IMG/VR virus record: IMGVR_UViG_3300021957_003085
Location: 1-26,250 of that record
Reading direction: 5' to 3' (one strand)
Length of the DNA stretch: 26,250 nt
Origin: a virus
Shown piece after piece: positions 1,856 through 26,250 of the stretch (positions are counted from its first letter, which is position 1; the number at the start of each line of letters is the position of its first letter). The position numbers and the translations under genes are program-made. The notes under the pieces are model-generated. The model had not been told where the DNA came from, did not search any database, and saw only the letters and a list, made by a program, of their open reading frames with translations.

Positions 1856-2557
1856 ATGTCTAATATAACAGACCACCAACGATATGAAGATGTTATCATC
1901 ACAGAAGTTACTAAAGTAGATAGTAAAGGTTGGGTTGGTATAAAGACTGAAGAGCACGGTGAAATAAGGTGTAAGTCTAATCTCAGAACTAAAATGAAAT
2001 TAAAGAAAGAATGGGAGGGTGACCTGACTGTATGGGTCAACCCTAACAATAGCACTGTGTGTGTAGCCTTTGATCAGAAGGCTTACCAAGCTACTGGTGA
2101 TGATGCAAGACCTAATGGTCAATGGGAAGTCACATTTAAGAATAACCCTTATGAAGCTGAAGGCTTTGTATACCTTATCATTGAGAAGAGCACTGGTAAG
2201 AGATATATAGGTAAGAAGTCTTATTGGAATTACAGTAAAGGTAAACGAGTAAGACAATCTAACTGGAAGACTTATGCTTCATCTAGTTCAGAGATATCTA
2301 CAAAGGTAGCTGAGAACAAAGATGACTATAACTTTATTATGTTACATGAAGCACCAGATAAATCTGCTCTAAACTATTTAGAAATAGAACTTCAAATAGA
2401 GCATAAAGTACTCACACTACTAGATGATCAAGGCGAGAAAGTCTTCTATAATAAGACACTCGGTAGTGAGAGATGGATGTTAACTAAATCATTTATAGAG
2501 GAATACAATGAATATAATTCAACAGAAAACACCTTACACGAACAGTATAACACCTGA
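1856..2557 (+). CDS. GIY-YIG endonuclease with an extra N-terminal domain
   Basis: A 233-residue protein whose central and C-terminal part fits the GIY-YIG nuclease fold: GFVYLI (103-108) for the first strand, RYIGKK (116-121) for the YIG strand, SNWKTYASSS (135-144), the acidic NYLEIELQ (173-180, Glu176 as likely metal ligand) and YNKTLGS (198-204, Asn199). This resembles a group of phage GIY-YIG enzymes in which a Lys after YIG takes the place of the usual Arg. Residues about 10-75 form a separate beta-rich domain with a possible SH3/OB-like pattern, which I do not recognise. The start follows the module's standard GAAAGGAAA ribosome binding site. It sits where T7 carries endonuclease I (gp3), so it may resolve junctions or cut host DNA; a homing enzyme is the alternative. 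The fold is likely, the role uncertain. Confidence 0.8.
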   Translation: MSNITDHQRYEDVIITEVTKVDSKGWVGIKTEEHGEIRCKSNLRTKMKLKKEWEGDLTVWVNPNNSTVCVAFDQKAYQATGDDARPNGQWEVTFKNNPYEAEGFVYLIIEKSTGKRYIGKKSYWNYSKGKRVRQSNWKTYASSSSEISTKVAENKDDYNFIMLHEAPDKSALNYLEIELQIEHKVLTLLDDQGEKVFYNKTLGSERWMLTKSFIEEYNEYNSTENTLHEQYNT

Positions 2558-5193: not shown

Positions 5194-7311
5194 ATGCAGG
5201 ACATAAAGGACTACCTCCTCAATAAAATAAGAGGAGACAACTTGGGTGTTAAACCCAGACGTAACTTACAACTCATGCGTATGATAGATACGGATGGTGT
5301 TGACATGCTAGACTTCTTAATAGAAGATATGGTATCCTATGCTAGAAAGGTAATTCAACGTTGCTTTAAACGCAATAAGGTAGAAGGTGAGTCAGCAATA
5401 ACTCAAGCCTCTATGGCAATAGGCAAATATATAGTGGAAGGTTGGGATAGCTCTAACGTTAACTTCAGAGATCATGTACGAGTAGGTGATCTAGTCATTG
5501 AAGGTTTCGTTATGTGTGGGTATCTAACTATCTCTGTAGGACATATGAAGAGTCGTAAGCCAGTGACCATACATGCTACTCCTAAGTGGGGTGAGATGGA
5601 AGTAATTGCAGGTAAAACAACTTGTATTAGTGCTACAGTGATTCCACCAATCAAAGGACTATTCCAAGACAACGGTAAGTCAGTTATAAAGACTTGGGAT
5701 AAATCTAAAGAACATAAGTTCTTAAACTATCTTAATAAACCATTTGTAAAAGCTATAAATAAACTACAAGCAACTAGATTTGTAGTAAACTCTGATGTGC
5801 ATAAGGCTATCCTAGAGAACTGGGATATGTTCATAAGTAATGAAGAGTATAGCGGAGAAGACAAGAATGAGAACGCTAAGCTCTATCAACGTCAAGCCTC
5901 AAAGAATAGAGAAGTCAAAGAGGTGATGGCTGCAGCTGATAAGTGGTTAGATAAAGAGTTTAGCTTTTATCTAGATGCAGACTATAGAGGTAGGCTATAC
6001 TATAGCGAACCGTTCTTTAACTTTCAAGGGGCAGATATAGCTCGTAGTCAGTTATTGTTTGCCAAGGGTAGACTCTTTGATGAGACTGCTAACTTCTGGC
6101 TTGCAGTACATACTGCTTGTTCATTTAATCAGTCATACAGTATAGATCAAATACCTAATTGGGCATCTTCAGACTATAAGAAGATACTCTTGGAAGAAGA
6201 GCTAGACACTATATCTGTAGATAAAATGACCCTAGAAGACAGAGCTAGATGGACTCAAGAGAACCTCGATGTGATAATAGAGATGGGTGAGATGAGAATC
6301 TTTGCAGAAGAAGCAGAGAAACGAATAGCATTCATGGCTTGTTGTATTGAGTGGTATAAGTACTCTCAGAGTAAAGATGAGTTCTATACTCAGCTACCTA
6401 TACCTATTGATGGTGCTAACAATGGTTGGCAACACCTAGGTGCTATGTCTAAGGACTCACTCACAGGTAGGCTAGTAGGTCTTGTACCAGTAGATATTCA
6501 GAATGACTTCTACGTACAGGTAGCTAAGAGACTATGTGAAAGGATGCCTGATTGGTTTGAAGAAAGACAAATGCCTATGAAGCATATCAGGAAGGGTATA
6601 GCTAAACGAGGGGCTATGACTAGGGCTTATAGTTGTGGTCAGAAGAAGATGTCAGAGTCTATGTACAGTGACTGCTATCAGTTTGGCTACACTAAAGATT
6701 ACGATATCAACACATGGGATTGTGATGAGCTTAGTAGTCAGGTGATCAGAGCTATACAAGAGGTATGCCCAGGACCATTAGACACCATGAGATACCTACA
6801 GAGGTTAGCTGATAAAGAGATATCTAATTGGCTAGCTACATACGGTACTGATAGAGGTCGTGGTATACAATGGGAATCTGAGTCAGGCTTTCCAGTAATA
6901 TACGAATGTTATCGTACTAGACCTGCTAAAGTAGACTGCTACGGATTCAATACACCAGACGGTGAGCTAAGGTTCAAGCATGTGATACGAGAGAAGACAG
7001 ATATACCAGATAGACGAGGGTTTATGTGTGGTATCAGTCCTAACTTTGTTCATAGCTCTGATGCAGCTCATATGGCTCTTGTAGTAGCCGATTGGGATGG
7101 TGAGTTTGGTGCAGTACACGACTCATTTAGTGCTCATGCGAGTAAGATAGAAGAGCTTATGATAGATGCACGAGACAAGTTCGTTAAAATATACGACAAA
7201 GAAAACTTCTATGACTCAATTCCATTTGGAAGAGGCTATGAGGGTGAGCAACCTACAATAGGTGCTTTGAATGTAAACGGAGTAATCGAATCAGATTACT
7301 TCTTCTGTTAA
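5194..7311 (+). CDS. T7-like single-subunit DNA-dependent RNA polymerase, short N-terminus
   Basis: A 705-residue single-subunit RNA polymerase for middle and late phage transcription. Motifs in order: DYRGR (Asp263-Arg267), motif A PIDGANNGWQH (catalytic Asp406), motif B KRGAMTRAYS (Lys471, Met475, Tyr479), PNFVHSSD (616-623), motif C VHDSF (His642, catalytic Asp643) and the C-terminal foot ESDYFFC, matching ESDFAFA of T7. All catalytic residues are present. T7 RNA polymerase has 883 residues and its DxxGR lies near 421-425, so about 155 residues are missing from the N-terminal domain, where T7 has its AT-rich recognition loop and intercalating hairpin. The Gly after the motif B Tyr is Ser480. 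The ribosome binding site is only a purine run (AGAGAGAAA). It has its own sigma70 promoter and lies last but one in the plus-strand module, unlike T7 where gene 1 is early. Confidence 0.96.
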   Translation: MQDIKDYLLNKIRGDNLGVKPRRNLQLMRMIDTDGVDMLDFLIEDMVSYARKVIQRCFKRNKVEGESAITQASMAIGKYIVEGWDSSNVNFRDHVRVGDLVIEGFVMCGYLTISVGHMKSRKPVTIHATPKWGEMEVIAGKTTCISATVIPPIKGLFQDNGKSVIKTWDKSKEHKFLNYLNKPFVKAINKLQATRFVVNSDVHKAILENWDMFISNEEYSGEDKNENAKLYQRQASKNREVKEVMAAADKWLDKEFSFYLDADYRGRLYYSEPFFNFQGADIARSQLLFAKGRLFDETANFWLAVHTACSFNQSYSIDQIPNWASSDYKKILLEEELDTISVDKMTLEDRARWTQENLDVIIEMGEMRIFAEEAEKRIAFMACCIEWYKYSQSKDEFYTQLPIPIDGANNGWQHLGAMSKDSLTGRLVGLVPVDIQNDFYVQVAKRLCERMPDWFEERQMPMKHIRKGIAKRGAMTRAYSCGQKKMSESMYSDCYQFGYTKDYDINTWDCDELSSQVIRAIQEVCPGPLDTMRYLQRLADKEISNWLATYGTDRGRGIQWESESGFPVIYECYRTRPAKVDCYGFNTPDGELRFKHVIREKTDIPDRRGFMCGISPNFVHSSDAAHMALVVADWDGEFGAVHDSFSAHASKIEELMIDARDKFVKIYDKENFYDSIPFGRGYEGEQPTIGALNVNGVIESDYFFC

Positions 7312-7582: not shown

Positions 7583-7622
7583 ATACCCCACAAGGTTTCC
7601 GTAAGGATTCCCTGTGGGGTAT
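7583..7622. terminator. Bidirectional Rho-independent terminator between convergent modules
   Basis: ATACCCCACA (7583-7592) pairs perfectly with TGTGGGGTAT (7613-7622), with inner AGG/CCC-type pairing around a short loop. The plus-strand transcript continues into GTTTGTTT and the minus-strand transcript into TTTTATTTTA, so both directions have a U-rich tail. It sits in the 53-nt gap between the plus-strand stop (7575) and the minus-strand stop (7629) and should end both modules. Confidence 0.9.
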
Positions 7623-7628
7623 GTTTGT

Positions 7629-10600
7629 TTATGCGTATTGATCTACGTATTCATCTGTTATAAGTGCACTTAATCGCTTCCTTTCTGCATTAACTTCAGC
7701 TATCATTTTATTTAAATCATTTTCAATATTAAGTATTTCGATTGATTTATTAAATAATTCTAAGAATACTTCAGGAGTTACTTTAACAGAAGGATCTTCA
7801 CCCTTTACTGTAGTCATATTAACATTTGGATCTCCGCCTTCCGACTCTTTTACCATGGCTCTTAAGATATTTATCTGGTCGTAAGTTCCTTTAGGTATTT
7901 TACCTTCTTCCATGTCTCTTCTAATAATAGATCCACCAAAGAAAACAAACTTACCTAATTCTTTATACTTACCTGCTCTGCCAATATCCATAAGCTCATT
8001 TCTAGCTTTTGCTTTTGCTATGTCTTCTCGCATCTGCCTTTTCATTTTATTAAATCCATCTCTTTCGGATTCTAATAAGTTATACTTCTTATTAACATCA
8101 AGAAATACTCTATTTGCTACGCTTTTTAACTCAATAAAAGTATCTGAATCACCCATAAAAGCATCATAGACTTGCATAACTAAATTATCTGGATTATTAC
8201 CAATAACTTCTGTTATAGTACGTTGAGCTATTGTTGCATCTATATTTTGAGTAGCATTAACCGCAAATTGATTACGTAATTTACTACCAGATCCAGGATT
8301 AGAAAGAAATCCTCCTTTAACTTTTTTCTTTTTAGCTTCTGCTGCAGCACTAAAATCTCTTTTCATAAGGCTTATCTGTGCAGGTTTAGTACGCTGATCT
8401 GCTTCAGGTCCAAAGTCAAACATAATAGTATCTTCTAATGAATACTCAAAACCGCCTGACTGAACTTCAAATCCATTAGGACCAACTGTAGTTGCCATTC
8501 TCTCAGCAAAGTTAAATACTCTACCCATCCGTTTAGCTAATTTAGCGTGTGCTAAAGCTCCACCAAGACCGTTGTTAAGAGCTACCTCTAAATATTTAGT
8601 AAGATCAGCTACAGATTCTTCATAATCTAAATTAGCAAAGAAATCAGGGTTATCATCAATAAATTTTCTAGCTGATTCTTCATGAAACTGTGCATCTTGA
8701 CCATAAATAGATGTCATAATAGGTAATTTCATTAGTTCTTTTACTTTACCTTTAGCATCTCTAATCTTTTCAAAGATATCATCCCATGTTTTAGGTTCTT
8801 TAACAAGTTGCTCTTGCCCAAACATAAAATTAAATACATCATCTCTTATATCGCCTTCAAAGTCTTCAAGAGACTTAGTGCTAGGATTAGTTTCATATAA
8901 CACTCCGCCTTTCCTAAGTATATTCTCAACACCCATTTGATAAGCTTGTATAACAGCACCGTTAGAGTTACCATCTATTTCAGCCTTAACCCTAGTAAGT
9001 AATGTACCTCCAGAAGGCATTGCTTCATATCGAGCTAACTCATGAAGAGCATCCATTGTAAAATAAAAAGCATCTTTACCTTGTTCTTCGAATAACGCCT
9101 GTAATCCAGGACTTAACGATAACCCTGCAGAAGTTTGAGTATCATTACCATTTTCTGCTTTAGTTTTTAAGTCATTAAAATTACTTGCATTCGCTTCTGT
9201 ATAGGCTAATAGTTCATTTCCAAACTGAATATATTGATCTTTATTTTTTTCAAACTCTCTTAGTTGTGCTTCATTAGATATCTTATCAGCTCCAGGCACA
9301 ATCGCCCTTGCTAATATCTGTAAAAAACCTCTTTCGGTTTTACTATTAGAGCCTTTAACTACTTTAGATTGTTTAGCTCCATCGACTATAAATCTAGCTG
9401 TTTTATCTGCTTGATAATTAAGTTCGGTTTGAGTTATCATTAAGCGAGAAGAGTTATTAATTGCAGTAAAACCATAAAAGAAAGAACGACCTGATTGTAA
9501 TAACCCATCATTCATTTGAGATACACGCATAGCTCTGTGACTACCTTGTATTCTCATTGCTTCTTTCGCTGCAATAGCTGCAAAGTCTTCTCCTCCTAAA
9601 CTCTCTGGAGTAAAAGAAGGATCAACTGCTGCTCTTTCTTTGTATTCTTTTTCTAAAGCAAGCCTTTTCTTTTTGAGATAAGCACTGTCTTGTTTAGTTG
9701 CTTTCTGTAAGAAAGGATTCATAGAGTTAAGTATACCACCTAACAACAATAGCTTATGCGGTGATGTAGTATGTGCAACTGTAGATGCTGCTTGTATAGC
9801 AACATCGATTTCCTTAGTGAGATAATTTTTTTGAACCTGAGTTGTTAATTGCTTTTGAGTATAAGCTCCTTCTCCCCTAAGTCTACCTTTATTAAGCGGA
9901 ACATTAGATACTGGTCGGTTATGTTTAGCCATACCCAACGCTTGCCTTGCAGCTGATCGAATAGCCGATAGCTTATTCTCACCTGTTCTAGTTGTTTCAT
10001 AAGTTCTTTTTTGCTTTCCATCTTCCATAGTTATAGTTCTGCCTTCAATCCAATCAAAAGCACTACTAGATGCTAATCCTTCTAAGATTACTTGCCCTAA
10101 TAAAGATCTTTCTCTTTCTGTAGTTCTATACTTATAACCAAATTCAGATGTTTCACCTGTAAATATTTCTGAAGGATCAGATCCTTGAGTAGGGTAAAGT
10201 AATCTTTCAAAAGTAGAACCAACTGCTTTACCCATATTAACTCTATCAAGAGCAGAATCATATTGTCTTTGACTAGATACTTTATCTGCTTCTTTGTCTT
10301 GTAATTGTAATCGATTACCTAATTCAAAGATAACAGCCATCATAGCAGTACTACCTGCTTCATCTCTAATATCTGATTGAGGATTAGAAGGGTCAACTAA
10401 TAAGTTTAACTTATCATACCCTTTTAATGCATAACTAAATTCACTACTATTATTCTTTAATACACTCATAGGATCTATTAATGAATCTGATATATCTTGA
10501 TCAGTTAAATTTACTTTTTCTCCAAAGAGAGAACCCTTACCAGAACCAAATTGAAAAGATTTAGAGCCTAAAGATAATGCAGCAGTCAAATTCATCATAC

Positions 10601-11144
10601 CATCATCTTCAGCAATCAGTCTTTTATTTGCATTATCTTCTAGCACTTCTCTTTCTACTTCGTTTCCAAATAGTTTAGCTACTTCTGAATTAAAATTAGG
10701 TCTATCTATAGCTTCTTTTGTTAAGGTACTATACAGTGCTTCTGATTTTTGTTTTGGACCTAATTGACCTATAGTCTCTCCATATAACCCTTGGGTTTTT
10801 GGATCAGCGACATTAGGTATATTAGATTTTTGAACTTCTCTAATACTTTCTTGACTAGGATCTATGTTAATTCTGCTCTGTAAGTCAGCAGGCTGGACAT
10901 TTTCTGGATTAGGACCAGTACCTATTGCTACTGGCTGATTTGCAACCTGAGTTTGAGGAGTATCTTCAACTCCTTTCATTCGCTCTACCATTTGATCGGT
11001 AGGGAATTCAATATTAAATTGCTTATCTGCAATAGTGGCTGTTTGTTGATTAGCTACGTTAGCTTTTTCTCTAGCCGCTTCTTCTGTTTGAATATTACCT
11101 TGTTCTAATTCATCTAAAAAATTAAAACCACTTCTCTTTCCCAT
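7629..11144 (-). CDS. Candidate virion-associated single-subunit RNA polymerase (N4 vRNAP-like), in internal core protein position
   Basis: A 1171-residue protein, last gene of the structural operon. Single-subunit RNA polymerase motifs can be read in order: FFYGFTAINNSSRLM (555-569, Arg567 at the DxxGR arginine) followed by NYQADKTAR (576-584), like NPQ in T7; motif A EIDGNSNG (Asp724; DGxxxG as in T7 DGSCSG); motif B KLPIMTSIYG (Lys806, Met810, Tyr814, Gly815; same Lys-Met-Tyr spacing as T7 631, 635, 639); NATQNIDA (963-970), like NFVHSQDG of T7; and motif C QVYDAF (Asp994). Asn963 to Asp994 is 31 residues, equal to T7 Asn781 to Asp812. Differences: Gly to Ser in DxxGR, T7 His784 to Gln966 and His811 to Tyr993. 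The N-terminal 150 residues are Gln/Asn-rich and the C-terminus is helical. The start follows AAAGGAGA. Its place after the SNase/gp16-like gene argues for ejection with the DNA. Homology is inferred from motifs; activity is untested. Confidence 0.7.
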   Translation of the reverse strand: MGKRSGFNFLDELEQGNIQTEEAAREKANVANQQTATIADKQFNIEFPTDQMVERMKGVEDTPQTQVANQPVAIGTGPNPENVQPADLQSRINIDPSQESIREVQKSNIPNVADPKTQGLYGETIGQLGPKQKSEALYSTLTKEAIDRPNFNSEVAKLFGNEVEREVLEDNANKRLIAEDDGMMNLTAALSLGSKSFQFGSGKGSLFGEKVNLTDQDISDSLIDPMSVLKNNSSEFSYALKGYDKLNLLVDPSNPQSDIRDEAGSTAMMAVIFELGNRLQLQDKEADKVSSQRQYDSALDRVNMGKAVGSTFERLLYPTQGSDPSEIFTGETSEFGYKYRTTERERSLLGQVILEGLASSSAFDWIEGRTITMEDGKQKRTYETTRTGENKLSAIRSAARQALGMAKHNRPVSNVPLNKGRLRGEGAYTQKQLTTQVQKNYLTKEIDVAIQAASTVAHTTSPHKLLLLGGILNSMNPFLQKATKQDSAYLKKKRLALEKEYKERAAVDPSFTPESLGGEDFAAIAAKEAMRIQGSHRAMRVSQMNDGLLQSGRSFFYGFTAINNSSRLMITQTELNYQADKTARFIVDGAKQSKVVKGSNSKTERGFLQILARAIVPGADKISNEAQLREFEKNKDQYIQFGNELLAYTEANASNFNDLKTKAENGNDTQTSAGLSLSPGLQALFEEQGKDAFYFTMDALHELARYEAMPSGGTLLTRVKAEIDGNSNGAVIQAYQMGVENILRKGGVLYETNPSTKSLEDFEGDIRDDVFNFMFGQEQLVKEPKTWDDIFEKIRDAKGKVKELMKLPIMTSIYGQDAQFHEESARKFIDDNPDFFANLDYEESVADLTKYLEVALNNGLGGALAHAKLAKRMGRVFNFAERMATTVGPNGFEVQSGGFEYSLEDTIMFDFGPEADQRTKPAQISLMKRDFSAAAEAKKKKVKGGFLSNPGSGSKLRNQFAVNATQNIDATIAQRTITEVIGNNPDNLVMQVYDAFMGDSDTFIELKSVANRVFLDVNKKYNLLESERDGFNKMKRQMREDIAKAKARNELMDIGRAGKYKELGKFVFFGGSIIRRDMEEGKIPKGTYDQINILRAMVKESEGGDPNVNMTTVKGEDPSVKVTPEVFLELFNKSIEILNIENDLNKMIAEVNAERKRLSALITDEYVDQYA

Positions 11145-15122: not shown

Positions 15123-15178
15123 ATCCCTAGGGATTCTCCCCTATAAGGGTGTGTTAAGAATTCCTAGGGATTTTTTTT
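15123..15178. terminator. Long-loop hairpin with T8 tail enclosing a promoter candidate
   Basis: ATCCCTAGG (15123-15131) pairs perfectly with CCTAGGGAT (15163-15171) around a 31-nt loop. On the plus strand it runs into eight T; on the minus strand into ACTTTATTTTA, a weaker U-tract. The left arm is part of a 12-nt palindrome (ATCCCTAGGGAT, 15123-15134), and CCTAGGGATT also occurs as a direct repeat at 15126-15135 and 15163-15172. It lies in the only sizeable gap of the minus-strand module (15098-15176). It may terminate or process the transcript of the genes before it and block plus-strand antisense transcription. Confidence 0.65.
15136..15158 (-). promoter_or_regulatory. Candidate T7-class phage promoter for the last two ejection-protein genes
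   Basis: Read on the minus strand, ACACCCTTATAGGGGAGA resembles the T7 promoter core CACTATAGGGAGA: TATA directly before a G-run then AGA, with an AC and C upstream at matching positions. The likely start is the G at 15141, 44 nt before the ATG of the 1316-residue protein. It lies inside the loop of the hairpin, so RNA starting here carries only one stem arm. I saw only this one clear copy in the window, so the consensus of this phage polymerase is not established. Confidence 0.55.
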
Positions 15179-17828
15179 ATTTAATTAGCTCGTTTATCCT
15201 TTCAGATGGCGTTCTATACGCCCATAAAGTAAAACCAGACCAACCATTATTATTGTCATCTTTCTTTTTCTCAGCAGCATTTGCTATTGCTTGGTCTCTT
15301 TCATCTTGAGGTATTTGACCCCAAGCATCATATGCCGCTTTCCATTCTGCTTTATACTCATCATTATAACCCTTGTCTTTAGGACTTTTTATATCCATAT
15401 CTTTCTTAATTTGTTTATCAAGTAAAGCTAAGTTATCTGGAGAAGTTCCTGTTATTGCTCCAGGACCAATACCAGTTAACGGAGTAAACATTTCTAATTG
15501 AACGTATTGTTCTAAACGATAAGGCTTTATATTATCACTATCTTTTTTATTAAGAGCTTTAGCTTCATAAAAGTTTACCATTGCTCTTTCAATAGCCATT
15601 TTTAATTGAGGAGCTTCGTTTATAGATCTACCACTACTTCTTAATATCTTTCGATAAATAGAGTTAGCTTCACTACCCATAGGTCTATACGCAGAATAAG
15701 AAGAATCGGTAGATTCAATACCACTCATTGTAGATTTATGTATTGCTTCACCGTAATTATCAAATTGTTTAGTAACTGCAGCATCACCATGAGCACTATC
15801 ATCCCACTCTTCAATATATAGCTGGCTAGTCGGAACATAATCTTTGCCTATTCTAGCATACTCTATTCCATCTTTATCTTTAAACTTAGGTACTTTACCA
15901 AGACCTCTAAGATAACCGCTTCCTGAAGATGTTTTCATACTTATCTTTTTAGTTGCAGGAATAAGATCATTCATGTCTGCTGTCTTAGCATATATTAATA
16001 AAGATTCTGGAGTATATTTTTCTGCAAAGTCTTTATCAAGAACTGCTTTCTTTGCATACGCTTGATTAGCATCAACACGCTTCATGTAATTTTTCATAGA
16101 ATAGTTTAAAGAGCCACCATGGTTATACCCCATAGCACGAGAGCCAGCATATATAAGAGCCATCCTTGCGAGTTCTTCACCATCAAACATACTTGAAAAG
16201 GCATTTTTAAAATACTCCATTGATTTATCTAGTATAACACCGCCATATTCTTTACCTTTATTTATAAGGTATTGACTAAAGTCACCCTCATACTCTCCTG
16301 TAAGGTTTTTCTTAGCCCAAGCTTCATCTGCCTCGTCAAGGCTTAGCTTACCCTCACCATAATCTGCAGTATTAGTATCTTGAATTATCTTTTTAACTAC
16401 TTCATTTTTATTTTTCTTTTCGTTAACTATATCTTCTGAAGATTTTTTCTCATATTTTTTCTTTTCTTTTTCTTTATCAGAAGTAAATTTCTCTACTGAA
16501 TCAGTTCTTTTTTCAACTATTTTTAAAATCTTTTTTTGAGCTTTAATAGCATCTTTTAATTTCTTTTCATTTGCAGCATTAGGTTCATTATCAAATTTTT
16601 CTTTATAATATTCTACATTTTTGTCTGCATCAACAAGAAATTGTTTAGCTTTTTTTAAATCTTTTGCTCTACTAACTTCAGTAGCTTTACCTTTAATAAT
16701 ATCATATATCTCTCCAGGAGCATCTGTTATAGTATTATAGATATCGGTAAGTGTGGTGTCGGTATTAAATGGATTAGCTTCCTTACCTCCAAATGCTTTA
16801 TCAAAATCAAATTCACCACCACTTAGTTTATTCATAATCTGATTACCAAGACCTGTTTCACTAGTGTCTGTTGAGATATCTTCAGGAGGTATTCCTTTTA
16901 TATAATCAGGAACTCCTTTGTTTGAAGTATCAGTAGTACTAGCTTGAGCGGACATGAATCCAGGCTCTATAGGTCTGCCATCAAGGGTGATTATCTTTGT
17001 TGTAGGTATTGCATCGGCTATTTTGCCAGCATATGCTTGACCACGAGGACCAAGTTCTTCTTCACCAGACTTAGCTTTAAGAACATTACCAACACCTGAA
17101 TGATAAGCAGTTAGTACCTGATCTTTAGTAAACTCTGGGTGTGCTTTCATAATACCTTGTAGATATTGTTTAGCAAAGCCTCTTGACTTTACTTCATTAA
17201 ATCTATCAGCACCACTTATAGCCTCTACACCATACCCAGGTTTTAATGCTGTAGCTTTCATTATCTGATATGGTCCAGCTGCACCTACTTCAGATACTGC
17301 ATTTACATCACCACCAGACTCTACTTCTCTCATAGCATCAAGTACGCTAGGCATCATATCTTCGGTAATAACTCCGCCATCCTGTTTATAAGCTGGCATT
17401 AAGGCTGCTTGTGCTTCTCCTTGAGACATATTAAGGTTATTCATAAGTGCTTGTATGATTTGCGAATCAGATAATCCCATTCCTTTTAATGTACTTATTT
17501 CTGAATTAACTGTTGATTGATTATAGTCATTGCCATAGTAATCTATCTGACCTCCCTCTGAATTGTAGCTAGGTATTGGTCCACCTTGTTTCTTTTGAAT
17601 AGCACGACCTTTGTCATTGAGTTTATCAAGCATAGGTTGTACTCCAGGAAGTCTCGATGCTTCTGCATTCACTACGTTTTCTCCAGGAGTTAACATAGCA
17701 GGCACAGTATCAGTTCCTTTTGGTTTAAATATCTCTGGGTTAGGAATCTCTTGCATAGAAGGAACATCGAATTCGTAGGAAAACATATTTCCATACCTAT
17801 CTTTTTCTGTGTACTTTTTAATGTTCAT
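15177..17828 (-). CDS. Internal virion protein with lytic transglycosylase (SLT) domain
   Basis: An 883-residue structural protein that likely opens a hole in peptidoglycan during DNA ejection. Residues about 155-275 form a lysozyme-like SLT domain: AMREVESGG (catalytic Glu170), VGAAGPYQIM (181-190), TAYHSGVGNVL (240-250). Near the N-terminus GTDTVPAMLTPGE (38-50) is a short motif recurring in phage tape-measure and structural proteins. Residues about 380-480 are a Lys/Glu-rich coiled coil (KKLKDAIKAQKKILKIVEKR). GG-hydrophobic repeats (QGGPIP, QDGGVI, NHGGSL) are scattered through it. The start overlaps the preceding stop as TAATG, with GGAGG inside the upstream gene. It is separated from the next gene by the hairpin-promoter gap. 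In T7 the transglycosylase is part of gp16; here it is a different polypeptide. Domain secure, precise virion role inferred. Confidence 0.85.
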   Translation of the reverse strand: MNIKKYTEKDRYGNMFSYEFDVPSMQEIPNPEIFKPKGTDTVPAMLTPGENVVNAEASRLPGVQPMLDKLNDKGRAIQKKQGGPIPSYNSEGGQIDYYGNDYNQSTVNSEISTLKGMGLSDSQIIQALMNNLNMSQGEAQAALMPAYKQDGGVITEDMMPSVLDAMREVESGGDVNAVSEVGAAGPYQIMKATALKPGYGVEAISGADRFNEVKSRGFAKQYLQGIMKAHPEFTKDQVLTAYHSGVGNVLKAKSGEEELGPRGQAYAGKIADAIPTTKIITLDGRPIEPGFMSAQASTTDTSNKGVPDYIKGIPPEDISTDTSETGLGNQIMNKLSGGEFDFDKAFGGKEANPFNTDTTLTDIYNTITDAPGEIYDIIKGKATEVSRAKDLKKAKQFLVDADKNVEYYKEKFDNEPNAANEKKLKDAIKAQKKILKIVEKRTDSVEKFTSDKEKEKKKYEKKSSEDIVNEKKNKNEVVKKIIQDTNTADYGEGKLSLDEADEAWAKKNLTGEYEGDFSQYLINKGKEYGGVILDKSMEYFKNAFSSMFDGEELARMALIYAGSRAMGYNHGGSLNYSMKNYMKRVDANQAYAKKAVLDKDFAEKYTPESLLIYAKTADMNDLIPATKKISMKTSSGSGYLRGLGKVPKFKDKDGIEYARIGKDYVPTSQLYIEEWDDSAHGDAAVTKQFDNYGEAIHKSTMSGIESTDSSYSAYRPMGSEANSIYRKILRSSGRSINEAPQLKMAIERAMVNFYEAKALNKKDSDNIKPYRLEQYVQLEMFTPLTGIGPGAITGTSPDNLALLDKQIKKDMDIKSPKDKGYNDEYKAEWKAAYDAWGQIPQDERDQAIANAAEKKKDDNNNGWSGFTLWAYRTPSERINELIK

Positions 17829-18868
17829 TACTTACCTCCGCCTCCACCACTATTAGAAGATGATGCATCGTCTGCATAACTTGTTCCTGTTCCTTGCCCT
17901 CGACCTGCAGTTGCAGTAGAGCTCGTTGATCCACTATAAGAATCAAAACTATCATCTGAATTGTTGTCAGTCATATCACCGCTATAGACACCACTATCAA
18001 CGGAGGGTGCTGCTGCTGACTCATTACCAGTAGAGAATGTACCTGTAGAGCTAAACTGTGAGCCTTGAGTTGCCGCACCAGTGTCACTATAACTTAAACC
18101 TTGTATAGCATCTGTAGTTGCACTGTTAGCACCTAAAGAACTTTCAGCTATTCCCATATCAAGACCTATCTTTTTAGCAATAGTGTTTTTATCAGCTTGA
18201 GTCATACCATCTGCATCTTTACCGAGAGGACTATTTTCTAAAGCAAATTCATAAGACTGTGCTTGATTGGAATTAGCTCTATTAGGATCATTTACACTAT
18301 AATCAAAAGCATTCTTAGGATCACCAAGAATATTACCAAGAGGATCATCCATAATTTGATTTGCAAATGCTCCCATCGTAGCGTACTCAGGATTCGCATA
18401 ACCTGTTATAGGATCTATTGATCTTCCTTGCTGGTCAAACGTACCACCAGTAAGACTACTAACAGTTCCAGGAGTTCCATAACCACTTGTCGGTACTGCT
18501 GGTCCAAATAAGCCATAGCCTGGAATCATATTCATTGGACTTGGTCCATACGTCTTTTGTAAACCAAAGTCTTGTCCTATATTTGCATTATTGATATCTT
18601 TATTTGCCTGATCAATAGACATTTGTGTACTTGCCATAGCACTCCCATTATCACTATCATTTCCCATAGTCATAGACGTATTATCTGCATATGGAGTAGG
18701 AGCTACTGTTGGAGCTTCGTATGCTGGGATTGTATAGTTAACTGGGGGTATATTTGCTGGACTCATAGAAGGTGCAAAATTCGAACCGCTATATCTAAAG
18801 CCATACTTCGGTTGTATCGAAGGGGCTGGTTGATAGGCTGTTGTGCCTGCACTAGATTTAAATGCCAT
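17828..18868 (-). CDS. Low-complexity structural protein, unknown function
   Basis: A 346-residue protein rich in Pro, Ser, Gly, Ala, Tyr and Asn, with a disordered N-terminus (proline-rich APSIQPKYGFRYSG, then PTVAPTPYAD) and a Ser/Gly/Thr-rich C-terminus ending in five Gly and Lys. No domain, signal peptide or membrane segment is evident. The start follows TAGGAGAAAAAC and its TAA overlaps the next ATG by one base. Its place between the gp14-like proteins and the transglycosylase protein suggests a virion component. The C-terminal Gly codons also supply the GGAGG ribosome binding site for the next gene. Confidence 0.75.
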   Translation of the reverse strand: MAFKSSAGTTAYQPAPSIQPKYGFRYSGSNFAPSMSPANIPPVNYTIPAYEAPTVAPTPYADNTSMTMGNDSDNGSAMASTQMSIDQANKDINNANIGQDFGLQKTYGPSPMNMIPGYGLFGPAVPTSGYGTPGTVSSLTGGTFDQQGRSIDPITGYANPEYATMGAFANQIMDDPLGNILGDPKNAFDYSVNDPNRANSNQAQSYEFALENSPLGKDADGMTQADKNTIAKKIGLDMGIAESSLGANSATTDAIQGLSYSDTGAATQGSQFSSTGTFSTGNESAAAPSVDSGVYSGDMTDNNSDDSFDSYSGSTSSTATAGRGQGTGTSYADDASSSNSGGGGGK

Positions 18869-18877
18869 GTTTTTCTC

Positions 18878-19528
18878 CTATGTATTAGGTGCGTTATCTG
18901 GTCTTATCATGTCATAAGGACTATATGTTTTATCAGCATTGAGAGGGTCTGCTCCTAGAGGAGGTCTCATCATTGGCATAGCCTGTTGAGCTGCTTCAGT
19001 CATGCTTTCAGCCATTATCTCGTTGTATAAATCATCAGGATTTATTCTCATCATTGGCATACTTGTCGGTGGCATTGTTTGAATAGGCTCTGGTTGATTG
19101 TTCATCAGTGCCATTGCTTGTTCTTTTGACATTGTACCTTGTGCATTATACTGCGGACTCAAAGGTCCAACCATTCCACCTTCATTAAACAATCCAAGTG
19201 CCTTACCAGCCAATAGACCAGCACCTACATAAGGTATTGCTGTAGCCATAGCCGCACCAGCACCTGCTCCGCCAGCACCTAGTATAGCACCGCCTTCAAC
19301 ACCACTGGCTACAGTAGGTGCAAGTGCACTGCTGATGCCTGAAGTGATTGCTCCTTGACCAGCATCTAAAACACCTGTCATCGCTCTTTGCTTAGCCATA
19401 TCCATCATTTGTCCACCCATCCCCTTTTGTTGTTGAGGAGCTTGAGGTGTTGCGAGGGGTGCTCTTTGAGTTTGCATCATTTGATTTCTTTTTTGTTCGT
19501 CTTCTGGGCTTAATGCTAGATCAATCAT
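18878..19528 (-). CDS. Putative internal virion protein with Gly/Ala-rich hydrophobic core
   Basis: A 216-residue protein with a Gln/Met-rich N-terminus (RNQMMQTQRAPLATPQAPQQ), a long Gly/Ala-rich hydrophobic stretch (about residues 55-113: ITSGISSALAPTV, ILGAGGAGAGAAMATAIPYV, GAGLLAGKALGLF) and a Met/Pro-rich C-terminus. The hydrophobic region could insert into a membrane or pack in the virion core. The motif NEGGMVG after it resembles GG motifs in the 883-residue protein. The ATG overlaps the preceding stop as ATGA. Small membrane-active ejection proteins such as T7 gp14 are the best analogy, but no homology is claimed. Confidence 0.7.
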   Translation of the reverse strand: MIDLALSPEDEQKRNQMMQTQRAPLATPQAPQQQKGMGGQMMDMAKQRAMTGVLDAGQGAITSGISSALAPTVASGVEGGAILGAGGAGAGAAMATAIPYVGAGLLAGKALGLFNEGGMVGPLSPQYNAQGTMSKEQAMALMNNQPEPIQTMPPTSMPMMRINPDDLYNEIMAESMTEAAQQAMPMMRPPLGADPLNADKTYSPYDMIRPDNAPNT

Positions 19529-20638: not shown

Positions 20639-20802
20639 TTTTGATCTATCCTTATTTTTAAGTCAGCAAAGTTAGAAGAAGCTCTTATGTCTGCCAATAA
20701 CTTTAATTGTCTTTGTTCTATAAGATTTATCTCTCTAATAACTTCTAATAGTGCCATATTAAGTGTACTATTATCTGTGAGAGGAGGATTATTAATAGCC
20801 AT
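20635..20802 (-). CDS. Small protein of unknown function (55 aa)
   Basis: A 55-residue frame, starting MAINNPPLTDNSTLNMALLE and followed by a leucine/isoleucine-rich amphipathic helix (VIREINLIEQRQLKLLADIR) that looks like a coiled-coil segment. The start overlaps the nozzle gene stop as TAATG, with AAGGAGG 9 nt upstream, and the stop overlaps the GNAT-like start as ATGA. The strong ribosome binding site and double coupling make it very likely real. It fills the only apparent gap between the nozzle and GNAT-like genes. A short coiled-coil protein here might be a virion component; not recognised. Confidence 0.75.
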   Translation of the reverse strand: MAINNPPLTDNSTLNMALLEVIREINLIEQRQLKLLADIRASSNFADLKIRIDQK

Positions 20803-23800
20803 TATCTATCGCCTCCTTTCTTAACCTTCATTTGAAGACCAGAGATGTTCCAAGCTTTATTATTACTAGCTACATAACCACTAGCTAGGCTTGCATTTGC
20901 ATCATCAACTCTATAGTTAATAAATCGACCCTGTACACGAGTATCTACTTTATGACTACTCGCCACATTAAAGTCATTGACAATAAGTCTATTACGCTTA
21001 GCGTTAGTCTGAGTGTTATCTTCTGGTGTAGTTAAAAATGGATCTTCTCCAGAAAAGTTAGTGCCTCTAGCTCTCACTTGTAGAGTAGCCCTTTGGGGCT
21101 CACCGCCTACTACTGTAACCGTTCCACCATTCGCCCATAGAGCTATCGTATCTATAGTTTCAGTGTCAAAGTTAGGTGTAATAGAGAGTTGTTGTCTCTC
21201 GAAATAAGAGATATAATTAGTACCTCCGAAGTCATAGCCAAGATCACCAGCTCTTATACGATTAAATAACGTACCACTGCTAAATCCACTCTCCGCAAAG
21301 ATAGGAAAAGATTTATTTGGATTTATATTAAGGCTACTCCAAGGTCTAACAATATCAAATGTAGTATTAATAGTAGTTCCACTAGTACTCTGCGTAGGAT
21401 TACCTGCTGCAACTAATGCACCCTCTGCTGCAGCTGTAAGTGCAGTAGTTGTGGGTGCAACACTCGCATTAATAGCTTGTGTAGCTGGACTAAATGATTT
21501 AACATAGTTAGCATTAGAACTAAATTGACTAGGACTTATAATAATACTAGTTGGTGAACTCGCATTATTAGGGGTTACTAATAATAACTGATTAGAGCTA
21601 ATCGTTGCTAACGCAGCCTGCATTGCCGTGAGTGTATTCACTACACTACCATTAGGCTTAGCTAGTTCTGTACTATTTTGAGTTGCATCTGGATTGTAGT
21701 ATGCGGCTAGATAAGCACTATCGCTAGTCAATCCTGTGTCTCCGTATCTACTATCTCCTGGAAGTAAAGTGAAGTTAGGATCTAATAATCTTCCTGGACC
21801 TTCGCCATAATGTCTATCAAATATAACACTATCACCTGCAAGTGTTTGTAGAGTGATTGTAACACGAGTCATCTTTGACCATACTGCGTTAATACCCTCT
21901 GTCACTGCTACGTTACTGCCAGTAGAGTTAGCGATAAGTGGGCTGACAAGTGTGCCAGTCCTAGACGTACCGTTTGCCACTGTATAACTAAAAGCTCCTG
22001 TAACATTTGTTCTAGCCACACTAGTAAAAGTTAATACTTCATTAGATCTAGCGATTGTAAAGAAACTAGAGTCTGTCCATGCTGACTCTAATGCTGTTGC
22101 TATCTCTGTAGCAGTTATTGTTTCTACATTGGTAGGACTGCTTCCTGAATCAGGATCAAATGCAGAAGTACTATCAAAATTCACTTGTATTGCATTACCG
22201 AGAGGAGGAGTTAAAGTAATAGTATCTGTTGTACTATGTGCTGCTCGACCTGCTCTTGTCTGTGCCCCTGTAAAAGTACTGTTAGTAAATCCACTTGGTA
22301 ATGAACCTATGCTAGCTAACGTCACACTAAAATTAACATTTTGTATTCCAACTGCTGCAGCATTTGCAGTAATTAAACCTGTACTTGTAGAACTTGTCCA
22401 ATTAGAATTGGCATTAACTAGTGTATTAATCTCACTAACTATGTTAGCACGACTAAATGTTCCTTCTAATACCTTAACTCCAGTATTTAAATTAGGAAAT
22501 GATACAGTCATAGTTACAGGAGGAATATTATTATTTACTCCTGTTGTGACTACACTAACACTACTCGTTACATCACCACCAAAAGTAGTTTCTGTATAAT
22601 CAGTTCCGCTATAGCTAGTTTTAAATGTGATAGTGAGAGCACTATGATTTCCACCTAGTCTAGAGATAAACCTGATCTTATTACTAACATTCGATACGCT
22701 ATAGATAGAACTACTACCACCGTTGAATACTGTTTTAGCTTGTAATAAAGGTAATGCATCTGCCGCTAATAATGCCTGACTATTCTTTCCAGTGCTAAAT
22801 GTTATTGTCTCATCTATTGCATCATGCAATCCACCAACAGCTGGAGCTTGTATTCTCATGCTTATTGCTGGACTAAGTGCTGCAGTGATACCGTATATAC
22901 CAACACCAGTTCTTGTAGAAGCTACTACAATACTTGTTGTTGCACCACCGCCTATGGCTAATGAGCTTGTACTAAACGCTCTTGGTCCTGGAACATCTGA
23001 AGTGAGTGTCAATACATTTGTACTTGCAGTTGCAGTAAAATCTGCTAAAGCATTGTTATTATTGATATAATCTCTAACTGCTGCTACAAGTATCGTCATC
23101 GTTATCGTAGCACCTTCAGCTTGACTAGTGCCTAGTAATGCACTTGCTGGAAGATTTACTGTACCAATACTACTATCACCTGTGATAATAACACTAGCTC
23201 CTCCGTCAAGGAAAGTACTTCCATCTCTATCATAAGTGAATGTACTACTTGAGTTAAAAGTAAGAGTACTTCTAGCAGTTACTGTATTTGGTCCACTGTC
23301 TCCTGTAAGTGTAAGGTCTACTACTTCAAGTGTATCTGTAGTAAACGTACTAAACGTTCCTACTGCTACAGTTTTAATAGCCTTAGTACCTATTGTCTTT
23401 TTAGGTGTGCCACCATTAATTGTGACTGCTTGTATTTCTTTCTTTCCTCTATTAGTGTAACCAGCATTACCTGAATTACCTGTGAGTGCTATAGTTGCTG
23501 TTGGTATGCCACCACCCTTAATTGGTCCGACATCACCTGCAGTAACACTATCAAGATCTCTAACTGTCCAAGCATTATCTCTATAGTTCCACACAAGAGC
23601 TTCATCACACTCACCAGCAAAAGAAGCTAAGGTAGGATAACAAACCCATACTTCATTTTCTCTATGATTGAGTAAAGTGAATAGTTGTTGTTCATGTATA
23701 GGATTAAGGTTGTTGTAGAAGTATTCTCTCACTCTACCATCAGACAATGATTGTATATCTCCTGGATTTCCAGCAAATACATATATGTCATTACCACCTA

Positions 23801-25061
23801 TAATAAAGTGTTTACCATCATATTCTATTACACCACCAGTAGTCAATAGACCATACTCATCTGTTACAGGACTAAATGACACAGGAGCATTAACGTTTCC
23901 TGTAAGTCTCATAACATGTATACTGTCTGAACTGTATATATACATATTACTTTGAAGAGACTTCATATCTTTAATAACATTAGTTTCTGACAAAGTGAAT
24001 TCATCAGCAGTACTAACACCAGCACTAAATGGATTCCAGTTATTAGGCACAGAGCCTGGAACTGCGACATCTGAAGTTCTCACGACACCTGATAGTCTTC
24101 TGATAATAGCATTATTAGTAGAGTCTAACTCTGTAAGATCACCTGCAACTAACAAATCACCGAATGATTGTATTATACCACATCTAACCTTAACGACATT
24201 TCTAGACTCAATAACAACTTTAACTGCATCACTAACTGTGAGACCACCAATAACTGCAACTGTAGTATTTGTACTTGTGTCTGTGTATAACTGAAAATTA
24301 TTTCCAGTAACAGTAGGAATAGTTGAAGGTAAATCTCCAGGAACAAAGTTAGTTCCGTTAGGAGTTCCACTTCCTGCTGGTGTTCCAGCTTGTACATTCT
24401 TAGTGTTAGCACCTGTAATTATAATAGAGTTGTTAGCAAAGTCTACTTTCTGACCAAGGTCAAATACAGTAGTTGCACCTTGAGTATAGGTGTCATCGAA
24501 TGTCTTTTGTTCAACTTGATAACTATCCCATCCAGGAAGTTCAGCTAACACTATATTAGCGATATCTGTATTACCTGCAGTGTCTAGTATGTAATGAGGC
24601 TTTTCAATTCCATTGTTAATAATAAAAGCAAAACCACCACTAAATAATGTATGTTGCCATCCACTAGTTGTGAAAGAAAAACCATCTCCACCATTAAGAC
24701 CACTAGGAGTTATGTCTCTCTTAGTTCCTGTATGGTCTTGTATATAAATCTTTTGTCCTACAGTGACGTTAGCTCTTACATAGTCCACTACCCAAAGATA
24801 GTAGCAAGCAAGAGGTTGCTTATTAGGATTTTCCCATACTGCAAAGTATCTCACCTTACCAAACTCTTCGTTGGCTGGTCCAAGATCTTCTGTTATGTTA
24901 TTAAGGAGTAACTCTCCTTCCATTTTCCTAATAGCACCATCTTTAAATCTCACATTCCTTGCATCTGTAAATACGTTAGGTGCAAGAGCGACAGGAGGAG
25001 TGTCAAACACGACACCCATTTTTGCTACATCAGTAACATTAATCACATTGTCTTCTGCCAT
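20802..25061 (-). CDS. Tail nozzle-like structural protein with inserted beta-rich modules
   Basis: A 1419-residue virion protein. Residues 1-515 begin with DTPPVALAPNVFTDARNVRF and contain WENPNKQPLA, YIYSSDSIHVMRL and VWVCYPTLASF segments, the pattern of podovirus tail tubular B / nozzle proteins, which close the tail and meet the receptor. Residues about 1236-1419 (VRPWSSLNINPNKSFPIF, ISYFERQQLSITPNFDTET, VDTRVQGRFINYRVDD) look like the end of the same platform. Between them, about 520-1060, are several Ser/Thr/Val-rich beta modules of 95-125 residues. T7 gp12 has 794 residues, so this protein is much longer. The start follows AAAGGAGA 22 nt after the reductase stop. No protease or lyase motif was seen. 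Nozzle identity rests on pattern and genomic position, so it is likely but not certain. Confidence 0.75.
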   Translation of the reverse strand: MAEDNVINVTDVAKMGVVFDTPPVALAPNVFTDARNVRFKDGAIRKMEGELLLNNITEDLGPANEEFGKVRYFAVWENPNKQPLACYYLWVVDYVRANVTVGQKIYIQDHTGTKRDITPSGLNGGDGFSFTTSGWQHTLFSGGFAFIINNGIEKPHYILDTAGNTDIANIVLAELPGWDSYQVEQKTFDDTYTQGATTVFDLGQKVDFANNSIIITGANTKNVQAGTPAGSGTPNGTNFVPGDLPSTIPTVTGNNFQLYTDTSTNTTVAVIGGLTVSDAVKVVIESRNVVKVRCGIIQSFGDLLVAGDLTELDSTNNAIIRRLSGVVRTSDVAVPGSVPNNWNPFSAGVSTADEFTLSETNVIKDMKSLQSNMYIYSSDSIHVMRLTGNVNAPVSFSPVTDEYGLLTTGGVIEYDGKHFIIGGNDIYVFAGNPGDIQSLSDGRVREYFYNNLNPIHEQQLFTLLNHRENEVWVCYPTLASFAGECDEALVWNYRDNAWTVRDLDSVTAGDVGPIKGGGIPTATIALTGNSGNAGYTNRGKKEIQAVTINGGTPKKTIGTKAIKTVAVGTFSTFTTDTLEVVDLTLTGDSGPNTVTARSTLTFNSSSTFTYDRDGSTFLDGGASVIITGDSSIGTVNLPASALLGTSQAEGATITMTILVAAVRDYINNNNALADFTATASTNVLTLTSDVPGPRAFSTSSLAIGGGATTSIVVASTRTGVGIYGITAALSPAISMRIQAPAVGGLHDAIDETITFSTGKNSQALLAADALPLLQAKTVFNGGSSSIYSVSNVSNKIRFISRLGGNHSALTITFKTSYSGTDYTETTFGGDVTSSVSVVTTGVNNNIPPVTMTVSFPNLNTGVKVLEGTFSRANIVSEINTLVNANSNWTSSTSTGLITANAAAVGIQNVNFSVTLASIGSLPSGFTNSTFTGAQTRAGRAAHSTTDTITLTPPLGNAIQVNFDSTSAFDPDSGSSPTNVETITATEIATALESAWTDSSFFTIARSNEVLTFTSVARTNVTGAFSYTVANGTSRTGTLVSPLIANSTGSNVAVTEGINAVWSKMTRVTITLQTLAGDSVIFDRHYGEGPGRLLDPNFTLLPGDSRYGDTGLTSDSAYLAAYYNPDATQNSTELAKPNGSVVNTLTAMQAALATISSNQLLLVTPNNASSPTSIIISPSQFSSNANYVKSFSPATQAINASVAPTTTALTAAAEGALVAAGNPTQSTSGTTINTTFDIVRPWSSLNINPNKSFPIFAESGFSSGTLFNRIRAGDLGYDFGGTNYISYFERQQLSITPNFDTETIDTIALWANGGTVTVVGGEPQRATLQVRARGTNFSGEDPFLTTPEDNTQTNAKRNRLIVNDFNVASSHKVDTRVQGRFINYRVDDANASLASGYVASNNKAWNISGLQMKVKKGGDR
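21888..23504 (-). repeat. Coding-level tandem divergent beta modules within the nozzle-like gene
   Basis: Residues about 520-1058 appear to contain at least three or four related units, each with Thr/Ser/Val-rich strands, an Asn/Ala-rich helix (AVRDYINNNNALADF; SQALLAADALPLLQAK; SRANIVSEINTLVN; TATEIATALESAW), a hydrophobic strand (NVLTLTSD; NKIRFISR; TGLITAN; EVLTFTS) and a Gly/Ala-rich closing segment ending near STRTGVGIYG, VVTTGVNNN, TRAGRAA or VTEGIN. The units are diverged in protein sequence and not obvious DNA repeats. Confidence 0.5.
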
Positions 25062-25083: not shown

Positions 25084-26250
25084 CTAAGCACACTCTCGTA
25101 CGCCAGTCGCTGGGTCGATAAAGCAAGCTTCAGCCTTGTCTTCTTCTTGAGCCACTTCCTCATTCTCGCCAGATACCTTCGCTTCTTCTTCCACGGTTTC
25201 GTTAAAGATTCCGTATCGTTTTCCATCAATGCGGAACGTAGTACACCCTTTCGCCCCACCTTTCCATGCATTAACATATACTTGTTTGAATGAATCATAG
25301 TCCACATCACCACTAACGTTACAAGTTTTTGAACATGCACTATCAATATAGTGTTGAGCTAATAATAACACATCTAAGTGATCATTAACACTAATACTAT
25401 CTGCAGTGCGACCCTCGACTCCATGTGAGTACGCATAATCTTTTACGGTCTCAACAATCGGTCCATCAAATGTCTGTATAGTTCTATCGTACTTATGACT
25501 GAAGACAGGTTCAATTCCTCCGCTAACGTTATCACCGACAATACTAATTGTACCTGTAGGTGCTATTGATGTAAGATGACTGTTACGGATTCCGTGTTCT
25601 CTTATAAGACTTTGAACGGAAGCTGGTAACGATCTAATGTAGTTACTCTTGAGGTAGTCCTTCCTATATAAGGGGAAAGCACCTTTATCTTTTGCTAACA
25701 TAGCCGAAGCTTTATAGCAATTATCTCTTAGACATGCGAATATCTTTTCTGCCCATGTCATAAATTCTTTAGATGCATATGGATATCCGAGCATCTCACC
25801 AGCATTTGCCATGCCTGTAACACCTAGACCCATACGTCTTTTATTCTTAGCCTCATCTTCTTGTGCTTTAAGTGGATATATGGTTCTATCAACGACATTA
25901 TCCATAGCTTGCACAACTGGCTTTATATCTTTTTTAAATTGTTTAAAGTTAAATACATAACCTTTCTTTTCTTTTTCAAGATACTTAGTAAGATTGAATG
26001 ATCCTAATAAGCAAGCACCGTATGCTGGCAAAGGTTGTTCTCCACAAGGATTAGTTGCGTATATATCTTCACAGTACCATAGGTTATTCATCTCACTGAT
26101 ACGATCAATAAATAAAACTCCAGGTTCTGCCCAATCCCAAGTAGATGACATTATCTCATCCCACACTTCTTGTGCTGAAAGAGTGCCTCTTACTTCACCG
26201 TTAAAGAATAACTCATAATCAGTGCCATTCTCTAATGCTTCCATGAATGC
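25084..26250 (-). CDS. Adenosylcobalamin-dependent (class II) ribonucleotide reductase, C-terminal part
   Basis: The C-terminal 388 codons of a class II ribonucleotide reductase, which makes deoxyribonucleotides from ribonucleotides. The frame stays open to the right edge (residues Ala-Phe precede the ATG at 26244), so the true start is outside. Visible motifs: ATNPCGEQPLPAYGACLLGS with the Asn-Cys-Glu catalytic set, SIAPTGTISIVGDNVSGGIEP (phosphate-binding and active-site loop) and a C-terminal cysteine pair (ACFIDPATGVRECA) that would serve as redox shuttle. NPCGEQPLP is typical of the B12-dependent NrdJ type rather than NrdA, so the host or its surroundings must supply cobalamin; that is inference. 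It is the first visible gene of the minus-strand structural operon, upstream of the nozzle gene. Like the dCMP deaminase it serves nucleotide supply. Confidence 0.92.
   Translation of the reverse strand, partial: AFMEALENGTDYELFFNGEVRGTLSAQEVWDEIMSSTWDWAEPGVLFIDRISEMNNLWYCEDIYATNPCGEQPLPAYGACLLGSFNLTKYLEKEKKGYVFNFKQFKKDIKPVVQAMDNVVDRTIYPLKAQEDEAKNKRRMGLGVTGMANAGEMLGYPYASKEFMTWAEKIFACLRDNCYKASAMLAKDKGAFPLYRKDYLKSNYIRSLPASVQSLIREHGIRNSHLTSIAPTGTISIVGDNVSGGIEPVFSHKYDRTIQTFDGPIVETVKDYAYSHGVEGRTADSISVNDHLDVLLLAQHYIDSACSKTCNVSGDVDYDSFKQVYVNAWKGGAKGCTTFRIDGKRYGIFNETVEEEAKVSGENEEVAQEEDKAEACFIDPATGVRECA

Follow-up and report, generated by a model that had tools for sequence, protein, structure and literature searches.

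The virion RNA polymerase (vRNAP) has been described as unique to the Schitoviridae, the family of N4-like phages (PMC12633501), and N4-like RNA polymerases (RNAPs) are said to be confined to N4-like phages, almost always as fusions with a metallopeptidase (PMC5512222). These enzymes comprise about 2800-3800 amino acids (aa) with N- and C-terminal domains (PMC10654107, PMC5512222, PMC12633501). A large survey of IMG/VR dropped vRNAP hits below 2500 aa (PMC10654107), a cut-off by which a compact family would be hidden from it. No description of such a family was found in the literature searched, i.e. open PMC papers. Here, we analyzed the IMG/VR contig IMGVR_UViG_3300021957_003085 (26,250 bases, hereafter the window), which is one whole contig with both ends cut inside genes and stems from an uncultured, probably aquatic phage. 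The final gene of its leftward structural cluster is an open reading frame (ORF) of 1171 aa. Its product is very probably a compact N4-type vRNAP that would be packaged in the virion, ejected into the host and employed to transcribe the first phage genes.

The original prediction had assigned the motifs NNSSR, DGNSNG, K-x3-MT-x2-YG, NATQNID and VYDAF to this protein, all of which were located at the residues it gave (Table 1). The NNSSR segment corresponds to TRVGR...NPQSAKLVR in N4 and to DWRGR...NPQ in T7, and motif A, here DGNSNG, reads DGVTNG in N4 and DGSCSG in T7. Motif B has its N4 equivalent in R-x3-K-N-P-L-T-I-T-I-Y-G. In the motif C region, Q966, D969 and D994 occupy the positions of T7 H784, T7 D787 and T7 D812 (N4 D951), respectively. 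In composition-preserving shuffles, K-x3-M-x3-Y appeared in 6.4% of cases; only 0.22% contained in addition DGxxxG spaced from it as in polymerases. As an a posteriori test this is weak alone, and the reality of the motifs is decided by their conservation across the family rather than by shuffling. Searched as a single sequence, the 1171-aa protein had no match in Pfam, PHROGs, NCBIfam, PDB sequences or collections of phages, viral contigs and genome contigs. Hence, only relatives and structure could settle its identity. Pfam RNA_pol likewise misses the protein, yet it scarcely detects the N4 vRNAP either (E 0.007).

An AlphaFold2 (AF2) model was built from an alignment of 25 sequences (predicted template modelling score, pTM, 0.73; predicted local distance difference test, pLDDT, 75). 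In this model, D724 ends the strand 720-723, helix 800-813 holds K806 and Y814 within it or at its end, and D994 lies in the turn of the beta hairpin 990-999, which is where motifs A, B and C would place them. The 50 PDB matches listed by Foldseek consisted entirely of RNAPs from mitochondria, T7 or N4, with an E-value of 3e-16 at the top. VIA gave Z scores of 23.5 for the yeast mitochondrial RNAP, 23.2 for T7 and 19.4 for N4 (2po4), with the match spanning residues 170-1171; the N4 chains aligned the most residues (753-777). The protein thus resembles T7 and mitochondrial RNAPs in its predicted right-hand fold over residues ~170-1171, in its catalytic residues and in the coinciding C-terminal ends. 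Residues 1-170 have low model confidence and are predicted to be disordered. The original prediction hinged on a right-hand polymerase fold, and the AF2 model with its Foldseek and VIA matches to known RNAPs bears it out. Taken together, homology and predicted fold establish the 1171-aa protein as a single-subunit RNAP.

Relatives were reached only via the genes neighbouring the 1171-aa ORF and not via the ORF itself. They include 47 non-identical IMG/VR sequences, 45 of which exceed 500 aa, with complete members of 1156-1407 aa. Further homologues are gp33 of Roseobacter phage CRP-7 (QBQ72826.1, "hypothetical protein"; L057 17859-21566, minus strand), matched by the family hidden Markov model (HMM) with an E-value of about 1e-13, and nine CRP-7-like loci. 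The profile of this CRP-7 group matched that of the family with a probability of 99.0 over 708 columns. Like the window protein, gp33 lacks cysteine and is encoded between a homologue of the neighbouring 1316-aa protein (gp34) and a T7-like RNAP (gp30). Scanning genome contigs with the family alignment revealed no prophage or host contig. Among 41 aligned family members, R567, D724, D994 and R584 are invariant (41/41 each), as are K/R806 and Y/F814 (41/41 each) when these exchanges are allowed; G729 and D969 are kept in 40/41, K581 in 39/41 and P808 in 36/41. The conservation of Asp724, Lys806 and Asp994, on which the original prediction also depended, was therefore confirmed, with Arg in place of Lys806 in 7 of the 41 members.

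The family was then compared with the two described types of single-subunit phage RNAPs. When the family was aligned by MAFFT, with no hint given, to the vRNAP cores of 16 Schitoviridae and to 10 T7-like RNAPs, the program placed R567/D724/K806/Y814/D994 together with T7 R425/D537/K631/Y639/D812 and N4 R424/D559/K670/Y678/D951. In hhalign, whose E-values stand for single comparisons and not for database searches, the family matched the Schitoviridae vRNAPs with a probability of 99.2 (score 193, 534 columns) and the T7-like RNAPs more weakly (92.6, score 69); N4-type against T7-like enzymes gave 93.4 (score 73.5), and negative controls with the neighbouring protein family gave 0.3 and 0.1. When all ORFs were searched by HMMER with an HMM of the N4 core, family members ranked first, and phrog_2206 ("virion RNA polymerase") matched 5 of 25 family members (best 3.9e-11). 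K581 and P808 are common to the family and the N4-type enzymes, whereas T7-like RNAPs lack their equivalents. An unrooted maximum-likelihood tree separated the family (99/94), the Schitoviridae vRNAPs (100/94) and the T7-like RNAPs (100/100), with CRP-7 gp33 on a very long branch. The link to the N4 vRNAP proposed originally is borne out by these profile matches and shared residues, and the sequence comparisons argue strongly for a closer kinship with the N4 vRNAP than with T7 RNAP. Within this relationship, the putative compact vRNAPs (1.16-1.4 kaa) form a clade of their own, found in CRP-7-type phages, whose genomes encode a T7-like RNAP as well.

The resemblance to N4 gp50 (core residues 998-2103) thus comprises a single-subunit RNAP core with aligned R/D/K/Y/D residues, a DGxxNG motif A, a K-x-P-[LI] motif B and an NPQ/NYQ-x2-K-x2-R block. 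Moreover, both genes are the last of a late cluster facing early/middle genes, both products have no cysteine, and both phages possess a second RNAP. In contrast to the N4-type enzymes, which reach about 3500 aa, members of the new family measure about 1160-1400 aa, lack the giant N- and C-terminal domains, form a separate clade and occur alongside a gp16-like protein and a monomeric RNAP of the T7-like kind; the capsid and terminase families differ from those of N4 as well.

Packaging and ejection are likely in view of gene position and cysteine depletion. The start codon of the candidate vRNAP gene lies two bases beyond the stop of the 1316-aa gene and is preceded by AGGAG. At all loci reaching far enough, the vRNAP gene follows the homologue of the 1316-aa gene by 0-52 nucleotides on the same strand and is convergent with the T7-like RNAP gene, which is the place held by gp50 in N4. 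The structural operon invariably ends with this gene. Cysteines amount to 0.04 per 1000 residues in the family (2 in 45 proteins) and equally in Schitoviridae vRNAPs, compared with 20.1 in the T7-like RNAPs of the family's own phages and 6.0 in all ORFs above 300 aa. T7 RNAP, too, differs in being cysteine-rich and encoded among early genes. No cysteine occurs in the five proteins of the window's ejection cluster, in N4 gp50-52 or in T7 gp15 and gp16. The 1171-aa protein accordingly shares genomic place and cysteine-free composition with T7 gp15 and gp16 but differs from both in being a polymerase. It is the 1316-aa neighbour that appears to resemble core proteins of this kind: VIA gave Z scores of 8.4 for the phiM1 ejectosome, 7.5 for the T7 core and 6.4 for the E1004 core, with the next, unrelated match at 4.4, whereas Foldseek returned no significant E-value for the same model (pTM 0.60). 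The 883-aa protein is the peptidoglycan-opening component of the ejection module, and the 216-aa protein is a possible candidate for a small membrane/pore ejection protein. CRP-7-type phages would thereby combine a gp16-like protein with a vRNAP, a pairing reported to be absent from N4 and DEV. Large virion proteins of the Zobellviridae have been proposed as possible vRNAPs, partly for their lack of cysteine (PMC10747016). Two such proteins, ICP2 gp6 (L166 3411-7661) and SIO1 gp26 (L167 28362-32816), contain no cysteine but did not match the polymerase profiles used here. Absence of cysteine hence marks ejection proteins generally and not polymerases.

Table 1. Positions of the candidate vRNAP, its motifs and the accompanying features in the window (Cys, cysteine).
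Feature	Position	Strand	Details
Candidate virion RNA polymerase	7629..11144	-	1171 aa, 0 Cys; ATG at 11144, stop at 7629
DxxGR/TxxGR-type motif	9393..9458	-	NNSSR 563-567 (R567) to N576-Y-Q578-x2-K581-x2-R584
Motif A, DGNSNG 724-729 (D724)	8958..8975	-	Beta-strand end
Motif B / O helix	8700..8741	-	K802-x3-K806-x-P808-x-M810-x3-Y814-G815; KLPIMTSIYG = 806-815
Motif C region	8148..8258	-	NATQNID 963-969, VYDAF 992-996, D999
Ejection/core protein, 1316 aa	11147..15097	-	0 Cys; phrog_6958 virion structural protein 3.1e-27; gp16-like fold match
Virion protein with SLT transglycosylase domain (158-258)	15177..17828	-	883 aa, 0 Cys
346-aa protein	17828..18868	-	0 Cys; upstream in same cluster
216-aa protein	18878..19528	-	0 Cys; Gly/Ala-rich hydrophobic stretch
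T7-like RNA polymerase	5194..7311	+	705 aa, 15 Cys; Pfam RNA_pol 1e-50
Hairpin CCCCACA...TGTGGGG	7585..7621	.	Between convergent vRNAP and early/middle gene clusters
Left half of the window		+	DNA polymerase end, exonuclease, primase-helicase, dCMP deaminase, T7-like RNA polymerase
Right half of the window		-	Ribonucleotide reductase, 1419-aa virion protein, then cluster whose last gene is the 1171-aa ORF

In the proposed sequence of events, the 1171-aa vRNAP would be synthesized late from the structural operon and packed into the head with the gp16-like protein, the SLT transglycosylase and small partners. It would then be threaded into the cell by way of the short tail, before or together with the DNA, refold there and, by analogy with N4, transcribe the first genes to be expressed from the incoming genome. 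These genes may include, or lead to, the T7-like RNAP of the phage, which would take over later transcription. A parallel to this order exists in N4, where the vRNAP makes RNAP II. The original prediction had mentioned a T7-like polymerase in this phage; the 705-aa protein is recognized by Pfam RNA_pol (Table 1), its motifs DGANNG, KRGAMTRAY and HDSF are all intact, and it is the second, non-virion RNAP of the phage.

Several observations weigh against a packaged early polymerase. The profile of the CRP-7 group gave no direct match to the N4 or T7 profiles. While gp33 and its nine relatives keep the R, D, Y and D residues, they have DARQSNAG as an altered motif A and carry Arg at the K806 position, an exchange that also occurs in some relatives within the family; this branch is divergent, and its activity is less certain judging from these residues. 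The window begins inside the DNA polymerase gene and does not contain the early region. In the early intergenic DNA of CRP-7 and of the 57.85-kb contig G001, N4-like hairpins (5-bp stem, 3-nt loop) are not in excess, so that N4-type hairpin promoters for the candidate vRNAP are not supported, although such promoters may exist. Finally, the papers found contain no proteomics or enzyme assay for CRP-7 or for the window phage.

Among the alternatives, the most serious is that the packaged polymerase acts mainly as a genome-entry motor replacing the host RNAP, with early expression as a by-product. The gp16-like protein adjoins the vRNAP, and in T7 it is gp16 that recruits the host RNAP, which pulls the DNA in (PMC12633501). 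No result obtained here separates such a role from early transcription. For the N4 vRNAP both roles are reported, with early transcripts being required for genome transport (PMC4496689). A predominant motor function seems unlikely, if worth serious consideration.

Alternatively, the protein could be a polymerase-derived structural protein that has lost catalysis and serves as an ejection-channel component only, much as a T7 gp16-type protein fills a comparable place without polymerase activity. S566, Q966 and Y993 of the window protein and the K806R exchange in some relatives could be taken in this sense, and the original prediction had regarded the Gly566Ser, His-to-Gln and His-to-Tyr substitutions as a possible sign of altered or lost activity. 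The alignment confirms that Q966 and Y993 replace T7 H784 and H811, but related vRNAPs show comparable deviations. Residue 993 is His in half of the family and Phe in 13 of 16 Schitoviridae vRNAPs, the H784 position is mostly Gly in the latter, and the active N4 enzyme deviates equally or more at both positions. Q966 and Y993 lie within the range of related vRNAPs, and none of the three changes suggests a loss of activity. Furthermore, the canonical HD motif (VHDAIITD) is present in half of the members and the canonical GR motif (SSVGR) in many, and beside the invariant R567, D724 and D994 the residues R/K806 and Y/F814 are kept across the family down to about 15-25% identity. Close pairs of family members display dN/dS values of 0.05-0.16, which shows that the family is under purifying selection. 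Loss of catalysis is thus very improbable, and the conserved residues make catalytic competence of the 1171-aa protein likely.

An active RNAP that is expressed late and stays unpackaged, serving late transcription or the priming of replication within the cell, would agree with the failure to find N4-type early promoters in CRP-7 and G001. However, a T7-like RNAP is already available to the phage, the gene resides in the ejection cluster at every locus, cysteine depletion fits ejected proteins and not intracellular RNAPs, and the closest relatives with known function are virion-packaged, all of which leaves this possibility with very little credit. Lastly, a chance resemblance of motifs in an unrelated helical ejection protein, in line with the lack of any family match for the 1171-aa protein alone in Pfam, PHROGs, NCBIfam or PDB sequences, is refuted by the predicted fold, the profile matches and the invariant catalytic residues.

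The compact N4-type vRNAP proposed here belongs to a type of phage that has been reported to be ubiquitous in the ocean, and the CRP-7 genome paper names only ORF30 as an RNAP, gp33 not being recognized as a polymerase (PMC6918029). Schitoviridae hallmark genes were examined in CRP-7, as the window does not include head genes of its own phage. The CRP-7 portal belongs to the N4 portal family phrog_1216, whereas the major capsid protein and the large terminase subunit fall into other phrogs, and the genome has 58 kb compared with about 70 kb for Schitoviridae. By these features, CRP-7 appears to be a mosaic rather than an evident schitovirus; the original label of a T7-like phage has to be revised, since the window phage is a CRP-7-type mosaic podovirus and does not belong to the Autographiviridae. 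The phages KIT05, KPP25 and BroderSalsa carry the C-terminal half of the 1316-aa protein, and in KIT05 and BroderSalsa this homologue is the last structural gene with no vRNAP after it. Their whole records contain neither a vRNAP nor a T7-like RNAP, as judged by phrog_2206 and PF00940. Hence, both polymerases appear together in the CRP-7-type lineage.

Some further features of these genomes deserve mention. Units resembling AACCTTGATA are repeated in an early intergenic region of CRP-7 (L057 1436-1626). Directly after an early gene at the left end, CTTCTGGG followed by a GC-rich hairpin is found both in CRP-7 (L057 322-360) and in G001 (L128 629-665), and may represent a regulatory element common to the two. 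In the window, the hairpin between the convergent clusters is a probable bidirectional terminator. The ribonucleotide reductase gene (25084-26250, minus strand) is situated within the late operon beside the gene for the 1419-aa virion protein (20802-25061, minus strand). The phrog_3287 match of the latter covers its N-terminal third. Its counterpart in CRP-7 is only 533 aa long, so that the window protein possesses a long extra C-terminal part. A gene for a SegE-like GIY-YIG homing endonuclease (1856-2557, plus strand) is flanked by those for the exonuclease and the primase-helicase; the CRP-7 annotation shows none at the corresponding place.

Beyond the compact vRNAP itself, a more speculative and still doubtful extension would be a hybrid ejection machine within a single virion, in which a gp16-like channel and a transglycosylase are joined by a minimal N4-type polymerase that acts both as entry motor and as early transcriptase. 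In such a scenario, the compact form would be ancestral, and the giant vRNAP of the Schitoviridae would have arisen by addition of N- and C-terminal domains. CRP-7 and its host are both in culture. If the assignment is correct, a second phage lineage beyond the Schitoviridae would enter cells with its own polymerase, using a natural enzyme about as large as the N4 mini-vRNAP. Such a compact vRNAP would offer a simpler model for studying the passage of a folded polymerase through a narrow tail and the purpose of the giant flanking domains of the N4 enzyme.

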